The notes under the pieces are model-generated. The model saw only the letters and a list, made by a program, of their open reading frames with translations. It had not been told where the DNA came from and did no database searches. A stretch of 64,000 nucleotides of DNA from Heterotrichella gracilis (lineage: Eukaryota; Sar; Xanthophyceae; Tribonematales; Xanthonemataceae), in contig JAULBX010024073.1 of the NCBI GenBank assembly GCA_032358255.1, positions 1 to 64,000 of the forward strand. Reading direction: 5' to 3'. A program made the translations under genes and the position numbers. Positions within the stretch are counted from its first letter, which is position 1; every line of letters begins with the position of its first letter. Shown one piece after another: positions 14,101-29,991 of this stretch.

Positions 14101-17100
14101 ATGGCATGCCAATCCAGTATGGCATGCACAAATGCCAGTGCACCACTAGTGGCTCCAGAAGGGTTCAAGGCAGGGCTGCCCCACACACATGGGAAAGTAT
14201 CCGTGCTGACTGGATACCTTGGCCTTCTACCCATGGAGGTGCGCCTTGCCAGGCAACTTTGAGACCACGTCCCTCACATGTTCAACCATGCTTGGAAGTT
14301 GAGGCGTGCTTGGCAGCAGCATTGACCTTACCCTTGACCTTGTAGCAAACTACTTTCCAAGATACTGCTACCTAGTTTCTTGGCATGTGTCGTAGAGACT
14401 GGGCTCAGCCGCAGACAAGTAGCTACACGTTTTGCCACTGTACATGTACAGTGTACCTTGAGCCTGGCCAGCTTGAATGGCCATGGGACGGTGCAGTTTC
14501 CTGCAGATGTTTCAAAAGACCTCTACAGTCGCCATGTACAACATCCTACCAGCAAGGCCTTGAAGCCGCTAAATCAATGAGCAGCACCTTCAGTCAGTCA
14601 AGTCGCTGCAGGTTCTTGAGGACGTACTGTGCCGCTGCGAAGCCCCTGCCCTGGCTTCCCTTGAAGCCACGTGCAGATGGTTTTTGTCTTCCCGCACTTG
14701 TCGGGCTGCTGCACTAGGACACCTACGGAGTGTACCTCATGCGCATGGTTTGCTACCCATACGGTGCGCCATGCCTCGCCGCAGGCCAAGGTTTTTATTT
14801 TGCATGCGCGGATACCCAGGCTAGCTATCAATACATGCCACTTTGTTGGTAACCTGTTCAGCCACATCTGTACAGTCAACCATGTCATGAACTTGGTCAC
14901 CAGTACATGCTTAAAATGTGAAGATGCTGTTGCTGAAGGCTTTTTATTGTTAATTGCAGGAAAAGAGAGACTTCGATCACATTGCAACACTTTGTCAAAA
15001 ATCAGTCCCATGCTGCTGCTCAGGTAATGCTCCCAGGCCTGTAGCACTTTCTATTTACATTGGCCCTGCCACAGACGATGTAGTGCATCACTGATGGCAT
15101 GGCATGGCATGGCCCATGTAGTACCACCAGCATGATTTGCATGTGGAACCTAAAGGGATCGCCAATAAAGTACTTCCGCAAGTGCGCTACAGGTGGAGTT
15201 TAGACCTGCAGTGGTGGTCTCAGAATGTTCGTTTTGCAATCATTGCAGGCCATGGCGCTGGATGTTGGAGGAAGCTTCTCATGTGCATTGCTTCACCGTG
15301 ACATGGAACCGAGCACCAGCCATAGAATGTACTGCTGGGGCCGAGGTATGCACACGTGTTTCGTTTCTTTGGGGGACACAAGTTCAGTCTGCAAGCAATG
15401 CCTTCCAAACCCGTGCACTGTGGCTGTGCTGCTGTGCAATTTTTAATCAAATGTCACCCTGACTATACAGAAATGTTAACTGCGTATGGTGACGCATTCT
15501 GTGTTGCTGTGATGATGTGCAGATTCGCACGGGCAACTTGGCAATCCCGGTACATGTCAGCGAAATGATATGGCTACCAAAAGCCTGGTTTTAGTCAAGG
15601 CCACTTGGGGTGAGGATGAGGATGCTGGAGTAGACCTTGGTGACAAGGTAAGTATATATGTGATGCGTGTGATCATGTCTCATCGATATATTTATTATTG
15701 CAGTTGGTAATTGTTGCGCTTGCTCAGCTAATTCAGCAGTTCTGGCTGGTCAGGGAGGCTGGAGCATCACCCCTCTTTGCATGTCATCCATCGGCAGCAT
15801 TTTTGAATCCAACCCCTGGCTACGGCACAGTACACATGCACTTCAAAACAAACTTTATTATTACCAGATACTCACAAGCCCGCATTTACGTCTGGGTCTC
15901 CTGTACCCTGAGGGCGCTCTAGCAGTTGCGCCCTTCAAATACTCGAGAAAAAATGATTTGCATGTGCACGCAACAGGTAGATGAGCAGTCGGAAGGGCAC
16001 CAGAAACGGCCAGCTGCACCACCAGCGGCTGTAGCCTGTGGAACTCACCATGCTGCAGCACTGTCCAAGCGGTGCGCACCTTTGACTGATGCAATGACTG
16101 AGCAATCTGCGTTGTCGAGCACGACCAGTACCTCATGGACCATCAGCAAGAGGGTCAGACCTTTCTTAGTCGTGGCATTTGTGAATGTCATTGATGAATT
16201 CCCAATGTTTCCAGTGTGGAAGGAAACCTGCAGCCTTGTTTCTTACCCTCCCAATATTACACAGTGGTGGCGTTGCAGGTATGAGTTTGTCACATGGGGT
16301 TCCAACAGCAGTGGAGAGCTCGGACGAAGTTGGCAAAATGGTTGCTATTTTGACCTCGTTAATCCAAGGCCAACCAGTCTAATGCTACCTCAAAGAATCA
16401 TCTCTGTATGTGCTGGTGCCAACTACACACTGGCCTTATCGAATGTTGGCCAGGTTTACAGCTGTGGAAGCAACACAATGGGAGAGCTTGGTTTGGATGA
16501 CATGGTGAAGCGAGCGTCCATGACCCGCGTAGATTTCGAGGGGTGAGGAACAAAAATCTGCATATGTATGCTGCCGCGTCATTGGTGTCATCATGTGGCA
16601 TATTGGTAATGTGGCTCCAATAGGCATTTTGTATTTGCACTTGCCTTACATACCTTCGTGCTTGTAAATGTAGGTATTTCCATCTGATCCCTAACTGGAT
16701 CTCATGGGATGGTGGGTGCGGGTCAGCTAGGTCTAAACCTTGTTGTGTTATCGGTGTCAATGGTTCTGAGTATTGCTTATATGCACAGGTCACATCGAGT
16801 TGTCGCCATAGCAGCTGGAAAGGCACATTCACTGGCCCTATCAGCAAATGGCAGGGTATTTTCATGGGGCGATGGGCGAAATGGCCAGCTTGGTCATCGG
16901 GCACTCAACATTGTTCTCCTTCACCCAGCCGGTGCGCAGCCCATTGCAAGCGCCAAGCCATTTGCCATTGACCACGAACTCAATCCTGACAACTATACAG
17001 CAAACAGGTATGGGCGTAGCCCATCAGCAGCTGCGGAATCAAAGCGCACTGCTAGTGGGTGAACACAGAAGTTGAAGTACATTGCCAATGTATCTGAGCA

Positions 17101-18334
17101 ACTGCTGGCACCGCCATGCAACGAGCTCTGAAGGCACAGCGCCAGTGTAGCTATGGCCGTGGCACCATGCGCCATAATGGACTTGCATTGGCCGGTGCCC
17201 TGGTGCGAACCAGTGGGCCCTAAACTATGCCTTTGTGCGTCCCCTTTCTTTCTTTCTTCTTGGCAGCTATTGGCCAAAATCTGTAACGTATAATTTTCTT
17301 AACAATGTCAATTTAGCCTTTGTATGTTGCAGGGTGGCCGCCATTGCAGCTGGAGGGAATCATAGTGTGGCTATCACTGTCTGCGGGGCAATGTTTGCAT
17401 TTGGCTGCAACCGGCATGGGCAACTGGGGGATGCACAGCTCGAGTCACACTGGTTCCCAGTTGAGGTGTGGTCAGAATCAGGTTGCATGAGCAGGCAGTG
17501 CCACATTAATCAGATCCCGTTAAATACTTTATGTTTTACCTGTCTTCATACTTTCCAGGGCACAGCCGGATTTTGCCCCTCTGGAATGTTGTCCAAAGGC
17601 ATGGCATGTGCATGTACTTGCAAATTTCGTGAGTGAAATATACTATGCGTGGCAAGCGGGACTTGCATATATCATACTGCTTTTGTGGGCATCCTTCACC
17701 TTGGTAGTATCCCAGTATGCCCTGCGCCAATGGTGCCATTCTGGTATGCCAATGCCTCGTGGGTTGCAGGTACAGATTGGTGGGGGAATGACTTCCGGCA
17801 CGAGAACCATTCAAGTCAGTTGTGGCAAGCACCACACACTTGCCTTAGCACAGACGGTTGGCAGAACACAAGTCTACCGCACCGGTGGGTAATCAATATC
17901 CCTGGTTGTGCTCACTGCGCACTGCTTGCACTGGTGCTGACCTGTTGCCACTGAGGACATGTAGCTCCATGGCTTCACCTCACCCATAATTACTTTCCAA
18001 ATATATGTTGCCAAGATTGCAACGCGCCTGACACGGTGGTGTGCCTATTACAACCCTAGGAGCCAACTGGAGTGGTCAGCTTGGCCACGGGGATCAACTT
18101 GCGTGCTGCACCTTTACCCCCATCCCAGGGCTGGCCAAGAAGAAGGTAGGGGCAGTGCGATGCGGCGATGAGCATTCAGCTGCAATCACCATGGAAGGGG
18201 ACTTGCTCATGTGGGGGCGAGGGGATGGAGGACAGCTGGGGCTGGGGAAGGAGAGGGCGTACTGGGAACCACAGCCATTGCTGGGATACAAGGTGCTGCA
18301 TCCTGATTGTATGCTGCGTCCTGCGTGCAACTGA
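14101..18334 (+). CDS. F-box protein with seven RCC1 repeats
   Basis: Eleven exons (558 aa): 14101-14238, 14612-14763, 14960-15023, 15249-15345, 15523-15647, 15977-16071, 16279-16542, 16789-17007, 17333-17465, 17770-17884, 18060-18334; all phases agree. Exons 1 and 2 join to give LLPMEVLEDVLCRCEAPALA then LEATCRWF, a clear F-box (about residues 43-75). Seven RCC1 blades follow, each with a glycine/His-Ser-leucine strand and a WG..GQLG turn: MYCWGRDSHGQLG, FVTWGSNSSGELG, VYSCGSNTMGELG, VFSWGDGRNGQLG, MFAFGCNRHGQLG, VYRTGANWSGQLG, LLMWGRGDGGQLG. Seven is a full propeller. By family knowledge an F-box binds SKP1 in an SCF ubiquitin ligase and the propeller would recruit substrate; this is inferred. 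FBXO24 in animals has the same layout. The start could also be the in-frame ATG at 14119. The end is set by a stop at 18332; a weak donor at 18293 leaves a short extension possible. Confidence 0.85.
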
Positions 18335-19636: not shown

Positions 19637-22600
19637 ATGGAGACCACAGACATGAGCCCTGCAGGCGCCCCATCCCCCCAAACCCCAGGCCAACAGTACG
19701 CCAGGCGCCCTGAGGCCCTCCACATCCCCGCCACATTTGACCACGCCCTGTTCCCCAAGTCTCCCACCACCATGTCGGAAGCATCCATCAGCGAATCTGA
19801 GATGGCAGCAGCCATTGACAGCGAGCACATGATTGAGGCTGCCCTGTGGACACCCTTCAAAAAGCTATACCAGGTAGGGTTAATGGTAGGGACAGGAGTG
19901 GAATTTTTGCTCTAGAATCACTGCACATCCAGGTAGGCTTCGTGGTAGGGGACAGGAATAACTTATCTGAGATCTTCACGCCAGAATTTAAATGATCACT
20001 GCACTGCATGCGTGGCCAGGGGGTAAGGGTGGGCAGGAGGAGGAGATCTTCCGGGTATGTCTGTTCCCTGACCGATGCTTCCCAGGTCTGTTATTGACCC
20101 AGTAATGTAGTAACAAAGTGTGTGGTTCACCAGATGGGCAAGGCTGCGCTGCTTGCGTCCAGGCGCCGTGCATTGGAACTCATTTTTGCCTTCAGGCTGG
20201 TTGAGGTGAGTCAGCGCCACTGCGGAAGGATTTGGTTGCAGCTGGTTCATAGCAATTTAGTGGCAAGCTTGCGAGGCTGCACAGAATTTGCATTAGGCTG
20301 CACAGAATTTGTATTAAAGGGCATGGTGGAGTTCCATTGTGCACGATGCACCGATTGCCCACTGAAGTCTCGCATCTGCCATGGCACTGCGCTTGACAAC
20401 AGTGTTTCAGACACAAGTACATGCTTGCCCTTGACAGATAGGTGGTCTGACAGCTGCTAAACAAGTTTTAATGACAACCTTGTCCTTACTACTTGTTCAA
20501 CGGCTGCCAGACCATATTATCTGTCAAGGGCATGCAAGTACAGCTTGCATGTAGGCATGGCCTTTGCCATATAAACTGTTTATACAATTATGTTGTGAAC
20601 CACGGTTTGTGTTTGCAAGCCCAGCCTTGTTGTGTACATATCTCAGCACCACTGCAAGGATGCCATGTGGCATCCAGGACTCCTAAATGTGCAAGTACAT
20701 GCTGCCCTTGTCCTGTGCAGGCTGGCAGGTCGCTGGACATGCTCCCAGAATGACATATTTGCTCATGCGGCATAGAGCCATGCTTTAAAGCTTTAATCTT
20801 ATTTTTTTCATTTGCATGCAAACCCAGCCTTACTGTGCTAGCGCTGCTTGCAAGGGCGCCACCTTTGCATGTGCCCTGCGCAGGCTACCCTGTGCATCAC
20901 CTGCATAGCCCTGACTACCGAGAGTGACAGCTGGAACGATGTGCCTGCCTTCATCTACCTCATGGTGGCTACAGGTGAGCCTCAACCGCACTGGGTGACA
21001 GGGACCTTGAGTATGAGACATGATTGCCTTTGGGGGACACGGAGCGTGGCTGCTAGGACCGCTGTACGATTACAACTCAATATTGATTTTTATAGTATTT
21101 TACTTGACCGTAATCTACGAGAGAAGAAGAGCTAAGAACCTCAACGCCACCGTCTGCTTTGAAACAACTGTAAATTGCCTGTTGGTTTATATATCTACCG
21201 CTTGGGGGAACACTGGTTCAGTCTGTGGCATTTGGGTGGCCATTCTGTCATGGTGGTGGTGCACACGCCCTGGTAGCGTATGGCACTTCACATGAAGCTA
21301 GATATTTATTTATATTTATATTGCCTCGCGTAAAGCAACCTGTGTCACTGCAGCAACTACATGCCCAACCCATACTCCTTGGGCAGTCCTGGTGATCCTT
21401 GACTTGAATCACATTTCAATTCTTTTGTGCAGTTATCACCCTGGCCAGCTCGGTGTTTATCACCGCTGTGGTTGGGCTGCAGCTGTTCCTGTCCCGACTG
21501 GCATTTGACACCACCCCCAGGGAGAGGCGCCCGCACCAGCGCACCCCCTCTGTGCGCTTCACACTGGCCCGAAAGACAACCACAGCAGGGGCAGTTCTAG
21601 CAATGGTGGGTTAGGGTTTAGGGTTTAGGTGACAACATATGACTACCACCGCAGGGCCGATCCTGGCAATGGTGACCTGCCCCCTTGTCCTGGATTCTGG
21701 ATTGTCCTCAACTGCATGTTAATCCCAACTTGGCAGCATGTCAAAGTTGGAAGATGGAATTGCTCCCTTCAATACATGTATAGATTCTGCATACCATTCT
21801 CTTCAGTTTCAATTCCAGCAGTGCATGTCATATGTCACTGTGGCAGATGCACTTGAATGGCACATGGACCCTAGTAATGATTTTCAACTCCTTTGAATGC
21901 TCAAACCAAGCGCAGTGGTTTCCACATGTACTACAACAATGCAAGCCTATGCGCGTGTCTGAGCAATGAAGTAGGAATTGGATAGTGCAGCTTCATCAAG
22001 ATAAAGTATACATGTAATGGTACACTAGTTAATGAAGTATACATATGACTAAAATGAAGTATTCTCGTAATAAAGTGTACCATTGTGAGATATTGCTCAC
22101 AATGTATGCCTTCACATGTTTCAGGTGGCAGGGATCCTCACCTACACATCCTCCTCTGCATCCCTGGCGGTGATCGTAGAGCGCCACACAATACCCCTCG
22201 ACTGCACCCTGCCTGCTGTCTCGGAGTCTGCGCCCAGTGGGCGCCAGGGGGGGTCGTGTGAACCGGTATCTGTGGTGAGGCATGGGTTGTACGCACTAGC
22301 AGTAGCTGTAAATCTCATTGCCTGCTTTCACTGTGCATCATGATGAAACCTTGCAAGGGGGTAAACCCAATTGGGTGGAAGGTTTAATTCTTCATGCAAC
22401 TAGGCTAGGTCAGCTGAATAGGATGATAGATGCCATTCATATTCTGTGCCTTTTGCTTCAGCACAGCTTAAATGGCCGCCGCCACTTGGGTGGAACCCAT
22501 CAGGAGATGTCAAGTCTGGCTTTCCTGTGTGTCCCCATCTGACAGGTTATACTATAGCCTGTCTGGTGGGGACACACAAGAAAGCCAATTTGACTATCCT

Positions 22601-25600
22601 GTGTTGGCTTCCACCCAAGTGGCGCCAACCCAAACAGTAGGCACATGTAACATTACCTGGTACATGTATGAAGTAGGATCCATTGCAACTTGTCTGCACC
22701 AACTGCACTCATGACTATGATGCAAATCCGTCCTGAGGCTGCCTCGTTGGCGCTCGCGCCTGCCTGACAAATTCCCCTAAACCCTAACCCTAAACACAGG
22801 CCGCCTCCTTTGCGCTGCTGCTTGGCTGCTGCCTGTGGTTCCACACATTCCTGTCGTTCCACGTGGTCAAGTACTACCGCCGCAAGGAGATCAAGGCAAT
22901 GCGCAGGGAGGAGAATGAGGTCAAGGCAAAGGGGAAGCCCATGTCGGCGGCGTATGTGGACACAGGTACAGGTGTGGGTGGAAGGAGAGGGGTTGCCTGG
23001 AACTCTAGAGTTCAGTGTGTGAGTATGGTGCTATCACAGCCTGTGGCAGTGAGCTTGTGCCGGAATTGCAGTGAATTTTGTATTTTTCTACGGATGGTTG
23101 TGCCATGACCTTAGTAGTGCATGCCTGGCAATGGCTCCCCCGGTCTTGCAGTGCACATGGACCACCACATTGCAGGGTGCTTATTGTTTTGCATTCTCCA
23201 TTGTTCCAAAGCCTGTCCCTCTTGAAAACACCCGTTTTGCTGACGGTGGTGTGTGCTGCCTGCACCAGACGTTGCGCCCTGTGTGCCTGGCCTGGCAACG
23301 CACCCCCCCCCACACCCATTGGAGAGGGAGGTCTTCTTTGACCGCCCTGGCAGCAGCAGCAGCGCGGGGAGTGCCTGTGCCCAGCGCCTGGCTTACCTGG
23401 AGTACAGGGGCCCTGCGCAGCACTGGGACGAGCCTGCAGCCCCGCGGGTGAGGACAAATACCCTAATGTGGGGTTTCAGAGGCTAAACGCCCTGCCGCTC
23501 TCGAATTTAATCTGCAGCGTATCCCCTCAACTACCTAAATCATAAATGATTGATAACTCTGACAAAGGCAGTTGCCAATGATTCTTAGCTGATCATATAT
23601 AGTTAATTTCATGTGTATAGAAAGGTGCCGTGGAATGATCATCAATACCAATTTTAAATGGTAATCGGGTCAGCATCTGTGATGTGCACCCCTTGCCAGG
23701 AAGATCGCATGATCCATTGGGCTGGGTTCCTGCTGAGTAGTCTAATGAGGCTACTACCACCACCACCATAATTGAGCAGACCGTGTGGCCTACTCCTACT
23801 GAGCTTGCCATAACCCTGGGTGCTCCACTTCACACTACCTGCAGGTACCTAAGCCCGATGCCCACGCCGCCACCCAACGCCAGGTACTCTCCCTCATAAG
23901 CTGGCCATACCAGCACACCACGCCAACTTGTAGGGAAGAAATGCCACCACCAAATACGGGGAGCCCAGGCACGCCATCCCGTGTGCAGTACCCAGTCAAA
24001 AGCCCTCCACCACCGATGGGGGGTGGTGCCTCCACCTCCAGCCCCCACACCTTACAGCTCCCGACACCCTCCCCCAGACTGCGCCAGCCATCACTATCCA
24101 GCACACCCACAGCACCAGCCACCAAATCCCCAGAGCTAAATCCCAGTCCCCTCAGGAGGGCCTCCCGGTCCCTGGATTTGAGCATCGGTGGAAGGGGCTC
24201 GGAATTTGCCTCAGGGGGACCAGATCAGACGGGATCTCCCATTACTCCTGCAGTGCCCACCCCTCCAGCGCAGCCCCAGGCCGGCCAACCACGCGGCAGC
24301 AACCTCCGCAGGTCATCAAGCTTCTCCCAGTTGTACCATTCCCCTCAGGCCAGTCCCAGGGGTGGCGCCACGCAGCTGCTACTGCCACACCCCCTCAAGC
24401 GGCTGAAGAGCTCCCCAAATCTGGCAGGTGTGGGCGCATCCCCGCCCCCCCCACCCACCATGGCACGCACAGCCAGCCTGTCCCAAACCCCCTCCCCCAG
24501 CTGGAACCGGGTGCGCGGGGTCATGAAGCTGGCAGCCATTGTGCAGTCCCCGGGGGCAGCGCAGCAGGCCAGGGAAGCTAAAACAGGCGACCGCAGCGGC
24601 AGCGGCAGGGCGCGGTGCGCTGCCAGCAGGCAGATGAGTTGTGGGGAGGAGCTGGCATGGGCCCTGGCTCGCAAGGCAAGGAGGCAGGCTGAGCAGAACC
24701 AGGAAAATGTGCCTGTAGGCAGGGGAGCCATGCTGACAGAGCCATTGCCAGCGCTTCTGCCTGGTGGGCGGGTGAAGGGACCCAACCAACTCCGTAGGGT
24801 GCACTATGCAGCGCCCAAGTCTCCCGTCACCCCTGTGTCATCCCCCACCAAGCCTGCACCACGTGGGGGAGTGCAGCGGTCTGCCCCCCCTGGGGGGTCA
24901 TCGCGCCCAAGGGAGGATGCGCATGGCGGGGCGACTAGGCATGCTGACGTGGCAAGGGTGGGCAAGGCGGGTCGGGGTGAGGCCTCGCGCAACCTGGTGC
25001 CTCAGCAGGGGTATGGTGGTGTTGTCCCCTCTGGCAGGTAAGGGGCACAACTGCACTGGTAGGTAATGCCCACCTATGTGCTCACTCTGCGTGGAAAATC
25101 TTATTTGCGCGATATTGTAAATCAATATACTTTCGTACTCAGTAAATTGAATTTCTCTCTTTTGATGCCTGCGCATGTGTAGGTTGCGTGAATGCCTCAT
25201 TAACTATATTATTGTGCCCCACTTCAAGCAGGGTTGCTGGCGGCAGCTCCAAAGGTGCACGGGTGGATGACCGTGTGGGGCGCACCGCCAGGGAGGAAGC
25301 CGAAGACCCTTCGCTGGACCCTAGGGCACCAGCGACAGTGCACGTGGAAGGTGAGGCCTGGTGCGCAGCAGGGGGATAGTCACTAATGGTGACGGGGGAT
25401 TGGAGTAGCTGGTGGCTGCCTTCAGAAGCTGCAAATGGATGGGATTCTACGAGGCATGTATCCATATTGTGAATTGCTGGGCTGCATGCATTACATCACA
25501 TAATGCTGGGCTGCATGGGGCCTTCTCCACATCATCCTCACAGCAACAACACACGCATGAGCTTGCCTGCAACCCACTGGCAACTACCGCACCCTCTCAC

Positions 25601-28101
25601 CCCCTACCCTCCCACCCCAGGCGTTACCACAGAGCGGTTCCCCGGCACCACCTCCCCGCGCTTCACTGACCCTGCCACGCGCACCCTGCTGCGCAACGAG
25701 GCTGCCCTGTCGGATGAGCCCATGCTGCACAGGGACCCCCTAAGCGGCCCGCAAGGGGGGGAAGGGGGGGAGGAGGTGTCGCTGGAGGAGTATGTGGAGG
25801 AGGTGGAGCAGGGTAAGGGGTGCAAGGGTGGAAAACCCTTGGGCAGGGTTTTGCATGGACGTGGTGCAGCATGAAGGGTACACATGTACATGTGGTGTTG
25901 TTTGGTGCACTGGCCAGTGGACCAAGCAGTACTTGTGTGGTGAGGTCGATTATATTAGTTTATCGAAAACATGGTATTTATTTCCAGGGTGACATTTTTA
26001 CTGAGTCAGGATTGTCAAGTTTTTTGTTGAGGATACCACTACTTGCCAGGACATTAAAGATTTGGATACAGGGTCCTAGCAAGGTTATCGATTTACCCTC
26101 CCCTGCCCCCCACAGGCCGCGCCCCCCTGCCTACTGAGGTGCATGCCCCCAACCCGCGCACACGATTCCCCGAGGGGGCTACGCGCGACGAGGGGAGGGC
26201 GGCGGTGCCTTCGCTGGTGCAAGGGGAGCACGAGGAAATGGACAGGGCAGCAGGGGAGAAGGTGATGGACATACTGCAGGTGGGTGCATCTGGCATGGCG
26301 GTGGAGGATGAGTGAGCTTCCTTCTCATGACTCTCGAGTCATGAATCATCAGCAGTGTCGAATCTCAATTGTAGTGCAGCCCATGTGTATGGCCCATACC
26401 CGCCTCAGCTGCATTGCAGCACACATGTATGACACCATTTGGAACCAGCGCCATGATGCACTTATGATAAGCTGTGGAGACGTACGCAGTGGCCACAGTG
26501 CAGGAGTGCAGTGACCAGGTGCATCTACAGCTAGTGTCAACATCAAGAGTATGCGTTCATTGATGCGGGCCTCTGTATGGATCCCCCCCTGCAGGTGACC
26601 CCTGACGAGGAGAAGCCCCTGCACATGGCCTTTGAGACCAGGTGGATGGCGTGGCTGATGGGAACGCTTAGGTGAGCACCATATCATGTCGCATTTCTGC
26701 AGTATTATAAAGTGTCAAGTGTATGGGCTGATCCATTCCACCCATTTGCCCAAAAACGCTTCAAGCTGGGCGTGATTACATCACACCATTAGCACACCAC
26801 CACTGATGGCATGCACAGGCCACATTTTGGTTGTGCATGCCCTGCTCGTGGCCCGTATATATGCCGTGTGGCGCTGCTACCTGTGGGATTGCTATGGCGA
26901 TGTCACCATGCATGTTCACCACTATATTATAGATTTAATTTATAATTAATCTATATGTATCTGGGGTTACCCAGATAGTTGTACAGCTTGTGCATGTTCC
27001 TGAGCTATGGTACCCTTTTGCGCAGGCTGTGGCAGTTTGTCTGGTCCCTCACCATCATCACCTACCTGCCCAACACAGCAACCTGGGGCGACTACGGCAC
27101 GCTGCTGTTCCTGTACATCGTGGCCATCATGCTGTGTGTGGGGTCCATCGTGCAGATACTGTGGGAGCTGGCGAGGCTGGCTGGCTACCGGCGCATGTTC
27201 TACGTGCACCACTCTTGGGCATGTGGGGCCATCACCTACCTGACTGCCAACACGGTGTTTGACCTGGTGGGTTGCGTGGGCATGGTCGGATGATGTTGGT
27301 GGTAGACAAATGTGTGGCTCATTGCATAGAAAATGCAAATGGGTTATTTTGCTGTCTTCTGTCCTGGCGCATGCGCAGTCATATCCAGGAGGGGAAATAT
27401 CTGCTACTGGAAAGCAAAACTGCAATTTCACATCCTACTGATCCAAGATCATGATCATTCGAATCATTCCATTATGGTGACAACCGCAGGTTGATGAAAT
27501 GCACACCGTGATTCCAGCCGCTGGCCCAACCCTCCCCTTCCCCCCCATGCAGATTTGTGTGCTGCTGGCGCTGGCTGCTGCCAGTGCGGGTGCGGGCTTG
27601 TCCACCTTCACCTACACCTGCTACAGGCAGGACAGCGAGTCATGGGGCTCCTGCTCCCTGCCGGACAGCGGTGACATCGGGCGCACGGTGCTGTTCATGT
27701 TCTTTGCGGTGTTTGGTCTGGCGACCTGCTGCTGCATCGACTGGTATGGGTGGAGGGAGACCAAGGCGGTGTTCAACCACTTCAGCAGGTATTGAGCCGA
27801 CCCCGGTGTGCTGTAACAAGTTGCCTTGGGCCCCACAGCTTGCGTCATGGGCAAGCCAGCCGCTTCCATATTGACGATTTGGAATGGCAGCTGAGGATGG
27901 TAGAAGCTAAAGTGTGTGGTGTGCAGTGCTGCTGCTTGCTGCATATGGTCATACTGTGTAAAGCTGTTGCTTGCTCCTGATTGGTTGGAACCATGCCGCA
28001 GGTACGGTGGGCTGAAGGCACGTGTGCGCTTCCCTAACCTGCCCCCGCCCCTGCCGCCACCGCCGACATACTGGTCAGGCGCACTGCACGAGCTGGTGTG
28101 A
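19637..28101 (+). CDS. Two-module tetraspan (MARVEL/CASP-like) membrane protein, unfamiliar
   Basis: Fifteen exons (1129 aa): 19637-19873, 20134-20205, 20884-20974, 21433-21605, 22125-22274, 22800-22965, 23269-23447, 23845-25037, 25232-25350, 25621-25812, 26116-26279, 26595-26671, 27026-27266, 27553-27788, 28002-28101. All are GT-AG with continuous phase. Two blocks of four hydrophobic helices are related. Block A (about residues 88-275) carries SWNDVPAFIYLMVAT, then LDCTLP between helices 3 and 4, and a basic exit (KYYRRKEIKAMRR). Block B (about 915-1105) carries TWGDYGTLLFLYIVA, then GSCSLP in the same place, and WYGWRETKAV. Between them lie about 640 residues rich in Pro, Ser, Gly and Arg, with acidic parts near the end. 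The four-helix layout with short N-terminal arginines recalls MARVEL/CASP-like proteins, but I do not recognise the protein. Both termini and the long loop should be cytosolic. Function unknown; a membrane scaffold is a guess. Confidence 0.85.
20275..20316. repeat. Short direct repeat in intron 2
   Basis: The 21-base unit GGCTGCACAGAATTTG plus tail occurs twice in tandem, with one change, in the second intron of the two-module membrane gene. Confidence 0.7.
20417..20541. repeat. Intronic inverted repeat, about 41-bp arms
   Basis: Bases 20417-20458 pair with 20501-20541 around a loop of about 42 bases. Both arms contain the shared block CCCTTGACAGATA, with GTAC at the outer ends. It lies in intron 2 of the two-module membrane gene. 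It could be a MITE, or fold as an RNA stem-loop within the pre-mRNA. Confidence 0.7.
21606..21630 (+). repeat. Telomere-type run at a splice donor
   Basis: The donor of the exon ending at 21605 reads GTGGGTTAGGGTTTAGGG and continues with another TTTAGG, so intron 4 of the two-module membrane gene begins with about three TTTAGGG units. The acceptor of its sixth exon is likewise preceded by CCCTAAACCCTAACCCTAAA (22777-22796), the opposite orientation. Confidence 0.8.
22474..22630. repeat. Intronic long hairpin, about 78-bp arms
   Basis: Bases 22474-22551 and 22553-22630 are near-reverse complements with almost no loop (centre GTTATACTATAGC). Conserved blocks are CGCCACTTGGGTGGAA, GGCTTTC, TGTGTGTCCCCA and GACAGG. 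I estimate roughly four in five positions pair. It lies wholly within intron 5 of the two-module membrane gene. Either a MITE or a small-RNA precursor; green algal microRNA precursors are often long intronic hairpins. Confidence 0.8.
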
Positions 28102-29013
28102 CACTCCGCTGCTACCGAAAAACACCGTCACCACCTGTTGTAGCCACAGGGTTGGGAAGGATGACTGGTACTGACAGGCTAGTGAGCAGGCCTATGATGG
28201 GTTGGTCTTGTCTGTTGTACTTGCCCTGAAGTGGGTTGTGGTTAGGAGGCAACGAACAGTATGTGTGACGCTGGCTGCGGACCAGACCTTGCAAGGTGCA
28301 ACGTTATTGCCAGTATGATTGTGCAGGGTTGCCCTCGTCTATCTGTCTGGCAAAGAAGTTATCTTTGTGTGATCTTACGGGTTGGCAACAGGGAGGACAC
28401 TACCTGCTTAGCCATCAGTGTTGTCCTCTCTGAGCTACACTTGCGCCAGAAATCCAGCTGTACACATGGCACACGGGCACAGGCAATCAAGCTCCAGGTT
28501 CTCGAGATATATTTCCTGAAAATAAAGGTGAACCGACACCAAGCACAGTTTGCAACTTGGCAATATTTTGCCCGTTGTTTAACCGTCGGAGAGCAGATGC
28601 ATGTACCAGAAATGATGCAAATAAGATGCATGCATGCATTCGTGTGCAGTGCATGCAAACATTAGCAAGCAAGCGGGGCGGTAAACAGGACAGGTGAACG
28701 TCAACAAGAACATTGTATCAACTTTTCGCACTGGCGCTGGTATATAGGAACTGGGAAGCCATATAAGTGCCCGTTGAGTGCATAGGGCGTACCACTGTTG
28801 ACATCGGTTGCTCAGTTGAATTGCCCAAGGTTGAAACGACATAGCCCAAAGTCTCAAGTTCAATTTACTCTCTAACGGGCTATTCAATGCTGCACTGCTT
28901 TATAAGTGCTTGTCTGGTGGCCCACAGACCAAGCTAGGTTGCTACTGTCCCTAACATGGCCATGGTACGTGTGGCAGGTGATAATAGCTGACGGTATTCT
29001 CAACCTATTCCCC
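28102..29013. other. Intergenic between two-module membrane gene and Maf gene
   Basis: Holds the 3' UTR of the upstream gene and the promoter and leader of the Maf gene. Runs of GCATGCATGC near 28627-28670 are a motif that recurs across the window. No gene seen. Confidence 0.45.
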
Positions 29014-29991
29014 ATGGCCACGTTCACACATAGATTTTGCAGCAGAGGCAGGACCACCACAGCACCTGCGCAGACAGCTCCTCGACTGCGCACTCCAGTC
29101 ACTATGCAAAGCAGCCTTGCCAGCATCAAAGTTGTTCTCGGGTCAGCGTCTCAACCGCGCAAAGGTGCGTACACAAGGCAACACCTTGCCCGCCTGTATG
29201 ATGTTGCAAAGCATACCTATTTGAGGCTCACTTTGCCTTGCACGTTGCAGCAATCATGCAAGAGGTGTCAGAGGAGCATGGGTTCAGCTATCAGGTGATG
29301 ACAGCGGACATAGACGAGAAGGCAATACGGCGAGCCACCGCGCCGGAGCTGGTAGTGGCCCTAGGCCATGCCAAGGCGCAAGCCATACTGCAACGCCTGA
29401 CAAAGGGTTTGGACGGGTACTTGGTAACCTGTGACCAGGTCGTGGATTGTGGGGGGAACATACTGGAGAAGCCAGAAACTGCTGAACAGGTGTGTATACA
29501 GCCGCCCTCACGCACATCTGCCTTGGTTTGTGCACCAAGCGCCCCCCGCCTGTGCAGGCAAGAGAGTACATCAGGGCCTATGCTGTTTCAGCGCCCTCTA
29601 CCGTGTCATCCGTTGTTTGCACCGACATAGCAACTGGTGAAGCATACGAGGGTTTTGATGTAGCCACGGTGCGTGTGTTTTCTACCAGCTCACACCACTC
29701 CAGTTGCACCCTGCCTGCAGCTTGCCCACACCGTGATTTTGATGCCACCTCATGCAGATCCGCTTCAGCCCTATTCCTTCCACTGTGGTGGAGCAGCTGA
29801 TTGACGAGTGCAGCGTGTTCACGTGTGCGGGGGGGTTGCAAGTGGAGAACCCCTTGGTCACGCCTTACGTGCAGCGGATAGATGGCACCATGGACAGCAT
29901 AATGGGCCTACCCAAGCACCTATTGTTGCAACTGCTGAGGCAGGCTGTTGGCAACCACACGGACCCTGTGCGTGGCTCGCGGCTTGGCTAA
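29014..29991 (+). CDS. Maf-family nucleotide pyrophosphatase
   Basis: Four exons (244 aa): 29014-29164, 29251-29489, 29558-29668, 29758-29991. Maf proteins hydrolyse non-canonical or modified nucleoside triphosphates to monophosphates, a housecleaning role. The N-terminal motif is KVVLGSASQPRK, close to the eukaryotic GSASKARR version of the Maf signature. It is followed by TADIDEKAIR, the LVVALGHAKAQAI helix, and the catalytic-aspartate strand VTCDQVVDCGG, then EKPETAEQAREYIRAY. The C-terminal half has VFTCAGGLQVENP and DSIMGLPKHLL. Length is normal plus about 35 N-terminal residues rich in Ser, Thr, Arg and Ala (MATFTHRFCSRGRTTTAPA), which could be an organelle transit peptide. The start at 29014 has a good CCCC-ATG-G context; the in-frame ATG at 29104 would give a cytosolic form. 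Confidence 0.93.

Follow-up and report, generated by a model that had tools for sequence, protein, structure and literature searches.

The window analysed here, a stretch of 64,000 nucleotides (positions 1-64000 of contig C241, in an assembly of 68.5 Mb and 903 contigs), carries on its plus strand a gene whose predicted product contains two four-helix blocks on either side of a giant linker. We rebuilt this gene from the raw sequence, choosing the splice sites by eye, and obtained 15 exons from an ATG at 19637 to a stop codon ending at 28101, encoding 1129 amino acids. All 14 introns are GT-AG and the phases are compatible at every junction. Length and coordinates are identical to those of an earlier note on this DNA, and the overall layout described there, two four-helix blocks around a giant linker, is borne out by the rebuilt model. 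In order, the product consists of a first four-helix block (the N-block), a Pro/Ala/Ser/Arg-rich linker, a second four-helix block (the C-block) and a conserved tail.

In the gene model, exons 1-2 (19637-19873 and 20134-20205) encode the N-terminal segment, with helix 1 of the N-block starting at the end of exon 2. Exons 3-4 (20884-20974 and 21433-21605) supply the remainder of helix 1 and then, as judged by hydropathy, helix 2, and exons 5-6 (22125-22274 and 22800-22965) supply helix 3, a loop with two cysteines, helix 4, a basic exit and the start of the linker. The Pro/Ala/Ser/Arg-rich linker itself is encoded by exons 7-11 (23269-23447, 23845-25037, 25232-25350, 25621-25812 and 26116-26279), and over this span (23269-26279) it shows Ser/Thr-Pro sites, a basic middle and an acidic C-terminal part. 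Exon 12 (26595-26671) holds the lead-in to the C-block (MAFETRWMAWLMGTLR), the counterpart of the end of the linker exon in two paralogs described below. Helices 1-2 of the C-block are found in exon 13 (27026-27266), and helices 3-4 with their two-cysteine loop in exon 14 (27553-27788). The conserved tail (YGG-x-x-AR...LPPPLPPPPTYWSG) and the stop codon make up exon 15 (28002-28101); in the alignment of the C-blocks, 13 of the 34 invariant columns fall within the last 26 compared residues (179-204).

The gene and its surroundings have some further features. Intron 2 contains an imperfect inverted repeat (20417-20541), 79% identical to the opposite strand at the same place and resembling a small hairpin element. 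Telomere-like repeats of the TTTAGGG type lie inside introns 4 and 5 (21606-21630 and 22779-22797), and such runs also adjoin exons of the paralogs. Upstream of the gene, open frames at 16688-18334 contain what by eye are RCC1-like repeats (GQLG motifs), and open frames just downstream, at 28906-29991, resemble by eye a Maf-like protein (VVLGSASQPRK).

Helices were called from hydropathy with a threshold of 1.4. Seven of the eight helices of the window protein lie above this threshold and the remaining one, helix 1 of the C-block (LWQFVWSLTIITYLP), lies below it and was recognised by eye. Counted in this way, each block has the four helices of a MARVEL-type domain, near residues 95-113, 129-147, 191-209 and 241-259 in the N-block and near 939-955 (the helix below threshold), 964-982, 1015-1033 and 1063-1081 in the C-block. 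The paralogs L013 and L014 each have all eight helices above threshold. The loop between helices 3 and 4 contains at least two cysteines in all six blocks of the three genes, the window loops having two each. There are no Lys or Arg residues in the helix 1-2 loop of the window N-block, against eight in the helix 2-3 loop, and by the positive-inside rule both ends of the protein and the linker are probably cytosolic. Structure models of exon 13 alone and exon 14 alone are helical, with mean pLDDT of 69 and 64; at such low confidence they neither prove nor refute a four-helix bundle. A Foldseek search with the low-confidence exon 13 fragment model gave a best E-value of 4.3, with none of 15 matches at E<=0.001, and a search of the PDB by sequence profile gave no meaningful match.

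The linker is of low complexity and comprises about 640-680 residues, and 677 residues separate helix 4 of the N-block from the following helix, among them 86 Lys+Arg and 66 Asp+Glu. In 60-residue steps, its net charge is positive from residue 349 to 768 and negative from 769 to 915. Across residues 289-915 we count 25 Ser/Thr-Pro sites, and 78% of the residues belong to a disorder-promoting set of our own choosing, in agreement with the disordered loop of about 640 residues noted earlier. The linker has no match in Pfam at E<=5, and all four matches returned by a search of its own genome with 512 linker residues at E<=0.01 were the linker itself. The coding support for the linker exons is mixed. 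A 412-codon open frame spans most of the linker, and the chance of a frame staying open that far at a given place is about 7e-5 from base composition. In exon 8 the model frame has no stops, compared with 4-10 in each of the other five frames. By codon usage the model frame is preferred in exons 10, 11 and 12 of the six linker exons, and not in exons 7, 8 and 9.

A search of the same genome with the C-block led to two further places, in contigs C452 (L013, E 7e-10) and C195 (L014, E 2e-4). The L013 model has 494 amino acids and the L014 model, which ends short of a stop codon, at least 478; both were read by eye, with the window gene for comparison, and their start codons are guesses. Their plan matches that of the window gene, with block, linker, block and conserved tail and with eight predicted helices each. 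The C-blocks of the three genes align with an hhalign E-value of 3.6e-14 at 28-30% identity, and on sequence they are clearly homologous. For the N-blocks, L013 and L014 give a good pairwise alignment (z 7.7), and the window N-block matches the profile of the two paralog N-blocks with an hhalign E-value of 9.2e-5, which is no closer than N-blocks and C-blocks are to each other overall (E 1.8e-4). The window N-block, used as a query against the genome, picked up neither paralog N-block and gave a weak match in C2 (E 0.195), where nothing was seen on the strand read. The searches with L013 and L014 cross-matched in the C-block only and found no N-block of another gene. In the intron following exon 2 of L013, on the minus strand at 7560-7440 and about 7015-6965, the end of that exon recurs in additional, degraded copies (SRGIQIDSPVEGKLTEV...), by eye a local exon duplication.

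Taken at the level of their sequences, the double-block proteins look like a small family of three genes. The giant linker is confined to the window gene among these three, since the paralog linkers have 108 residues (L013) and 95 residues (L014). The giant linker and its extra exons may have been expanded in the window gene or shortened in the two paralogs.

It might be asked whether the gene model has falsely merged two adjacent genes, one for each block. The linker extends across six exons, three of them with codon usage against the model frame, and in-frame Met codons lie upstream of helix 1 of the C-block. We consider such a merger very unlikely. In both paralogs, helix 4 of block 1, the linker and the stretch leading into block 2 lie in a single open frame on the minus strand (5816-6250 in L013 and 5934-6344 in L014), so that the two-block layout is not a case of two genes run together. 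In the window gene the exon chain is open to one stop codon, and splicing exon 6 directly to exon 12 breaks the frame (phase 1 against phase 0).

Intron positions were compared across the six blocks under six MAFFT settings, two of which gave identical columns. All three genes have phase-0 introns in N-block helix 1 (one column in three of the six settings), before N-block helix 3 (six of six) and before N-block helix 4 (four of six). They also share a phase-2 intron before C-block helix 1, which follows exon 12 and lies inside an Arg codon, and a phase-0 intron before C-block helix 3, both in six of six settings. A phase-1 intron between helices 1 and 2 of the N-block is found in the window gene and L014 and is absent in L013. 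The intron after C-block helix 4 varies, being of phase 2 in the window gene, of phase 0 and elsewhere in L014, and missing in L013. Because L013 and L014 share the layout and several intron positions with the window gene, the two-block plan is most likely older than the three genes. Between the blocks, the phase-0 intron before helix 3 falls in one column for N-blocks and C-blocks, in six of six blocks and under all six settings. Our splice choices partly steered the agreement within the N-blocks and within the C-blocks, but agreement between N and C played no part in choosing, and a rough estimate of the chance of one such N-C coincidence is about 2%. The matching helix 3 intron column gives support for a relation between the blocks that is independent of residue scores.

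The residue scores themselves come from profile alignment of the two blocks, a check that the earlier note had proposed and that gives a significant result. The hhalign score is 32.7 (E 1.8e-4, and 1.3e-4 in another run), compared with 24.1 for the best of 60 five-column block shuffles and 13.1 and 15.9 for reversed controls, and for every one of the three block sizes used it lies above all 60 hydropathy-preserving shuffles. In single N-C pairs, one of nine (p14N-wC) beats all 200 block shuffles and four of nine have z below 1. The paralog N and paralog C profiles align with E 0.0078 over 31 columns. The sequence similarity of N to C is modest, and above the level of shuffles that preserve hydropathy. 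The pairing first made by eye is recovered for SWNDVPAFIYLMVAT with TWGDYGTLLFLYIVA and for the register of helices 1-3. It is not recovered for LDCTLP with GSCSLP, where the local alignment stops earlier and the columns of the joint alignment differ; both motifs sit in the two-cysteine loop between helices 3 and 4.

A relation between the two blocks is supported by profile score and shared intron, and it fits an internal duplication, as first claimed, as well as a fusion of related genes. That the blocks come from the fusion of two different MARVEL-type genes is a question of origin that is compatible with our main reading, and we regard it as quite possible without favouring it. The paralog N-blocks fit MARVEL and the window C-block fits CASP_dom only, and when N-blocks and C-blocks are compared pair by pair their similarity is weak. 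The genome also contains a MARVEL-like gene with a single block (L040, contig C621, minus strand, E 0.033), in which an exon likewise seems to begin at helix 3, with an uncertain donor site, so that the helix 3 intron may predate the doubling. A fusion sits less easily with the common column of this phase-0 intron in all six blocks. L040, for its part, does not align with either of the block profiles (hhalign E 0.95 and 0.21), and one of its six single pairs (p13C-L040) reaches a z of 3.1.

The placement of the blocks in the MARVEL/CASP superfamily comes from the family as a whole. For the window N-block and C-block no match to MARVEL (PF01284, cut-off 32.8 bits) is listed at E<=10. Against CASP_dom (PF04535, cut-off 26.2 bits), the window C-block scores 19.5-19.8 bits (E 6.8e-4 to 8.5e-4), in a match that extends from exon 13 into exon 14, and the window N-block 8.7-12.2 bits, all under the cut-off. 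The L014 N-block, trimmed to domain size, reaches 33.3 bits for MARVEL and 27.2 bits for CASP_dom, above both cut-offs and over nearly the whole of each profile. As a whole protein L014 stays under the MARVEL cut-off with 29.1 bits, as does whole L013, and the L013 N-block scores 24.6 bits (E 2.8e-5), also under it. The C-blocks of L013 and L014 match neither MARVEL nor CASP_dom. Since the window blocks fall short of the Pfam cut-offs and one paralog N-block passes them, the assignment is one of the family. The MARVEL/CASP-like character claimed earlier holds in the tetraspan blocks and in the L014 N-block, but the window blocks alone fail both cut-offs. An Arg in helix 1 and an Asp in helix 3 are described as marks of CASPs. 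These residues do not seem to be kept across the window and paralog blocks; at the start of helix 3 the window C-block has Asp and the paralog C-blocks have Asn at the same place, in alignments read by eye. The blocks might instead be tetraspans of the Claudin/PMP22 type or of some other unrelated kind, or belong to a transporter, which we consider highly improbable. The window N-block does match Claudin_2 (E 7e-4, profile positions 100-189 of 192), but this match is under the cut-off and is found in one of three N-blocks, and the L014 N-block spans MARVEL nearly end to end and above cut-off.

Searches with the domain profiles were extended to the genome. CASP_dom had no matches at E<=10, and MARVEL had four weak ones (E 0.005-0.33, all under cut-off): the paralog L013 in C452, L040 in C621, a bacterial-looking place in C1 (L039), and C875 (L038). 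At the last of these nothing clear was seen on either strand. Multi-exon genes are poorly visible to such searches, so these results do not show absence. The Pil1 profile (PF13805) had no match, but no control matched either, hence this search is uninformative. With the C-block alignment, 74 pattern matches in a viral collection and 83 in a prokaryote collection were obtained and none was confirmed. With 43 exon-level matches to the chlorophyll a/b-binding family, the genome is that of a photosynthetic eukaryote. On the minus strand of C1, L039 has long frames that by eye resemble bacterial cytochrome c maturation proteins, and the assembly therefore seems to include bacterial contigs.

The tandem-MARVEL layout, with two tetraspan blocks and eight helices in one chain, is present in all three gene models. 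The earlier note knew of no named family with such a layout, but two-MARVEL proteins have already been named, MYADM and PiMDP1/2. MYADM and MYADML2 have about 320 amino acids in all and, to our knowledge, no linker of the size found in the window gene. These animal proteins of the MAL family are described as single chains with two MARVEL domains and, like the window protein, eight predicted helices (PMC10216460). PiMDP1 and PiMDP2 of the oomycete Phytophthora infestans are described at the plasma membrane and in extracellular vesicles, and share with the window protein two MARVEL domains and eight helices, with their ends predicted on one side (PMC12457093). The likeness to MYADM and to the PiMDPs is one of layout as described in the literature. 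The same source sets the PiMDPs, with their two domains, against Nce102, a MARVEL protein of the furrow-like membrane domain of fungal eisosomes (PMC12457093). The CASP and CASPL proteins of land plants are, like the proteins described here, tetraspans of the MARVEL superfamily, the window C-block lying below and the L014 N-block above the CASP_dom cut-off. Roppolo et al. in 2014 reportedly catalogued single-block CASP-like proteins of green algae. The land plant proteins differ in having a single block of four helices, as described for the CASPL family, where GhCASPL1 is reported to contribute to the stability of cellulose synthase complexes (PMC11622535). CASPs are described as building wall-attached membrane domains that exclude other proteins (PMC10036488). 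Judged by titles and the beginnings of abstracts, searches of a partial literature collection turned up nothing on MARVEL proteins of algae.

We suggest that the window gene encodes an eight-helix tandem membrane protein like those of the MARVEL/CASP superfamily, probably the scaffold of an ordered membrane patch, and put the probability of this reading at roughly 0.62. The patch would lie in the plasma membrane or a late secretory membrane, and the protein may act there as a scaffold or fence. Within the membrane the two blocks would be packed and would associate, either with one another or with neighbours, and the outer loops might carry disulphides. With its basic and acidic parts, the long linker could recruit cytosolic partners or acidic lipids, under the control of phosphorylation. 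L013 and L014, with their short linkers, would provide the core function.

A more specific and unlikely extension is that these proteins form an algal tandem-MARVEL scaffold family building wall-facing plasma-membrane domains, for example eisosome-like furrows, with the giant phospho-regulated cytosolic loop of the window gene coupling the domain to the cortex. The furrow version assumes a green-algal host, and we know of no membrane protein identified for the eisosome-like furrows of such algae. Published work describes eisosome furrows from green microalgae (PMC12309347, PMC5753163), and Trebouxia and Asterochloris are among the green microalgae for which eisosomes are reported (PMC12309347, PMC9405249). 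Animals, plants and fungi all have specialised membrane zones that are shaped by MARVEL proteins. If our reading is true, the two-block MARVEL architecture would be found in a photosynthetic eukaryote, beside animals and oomycetes, and a family of three genes with one giant-linker member would be a target for tagging in studies of how algal membrane domains are organised.
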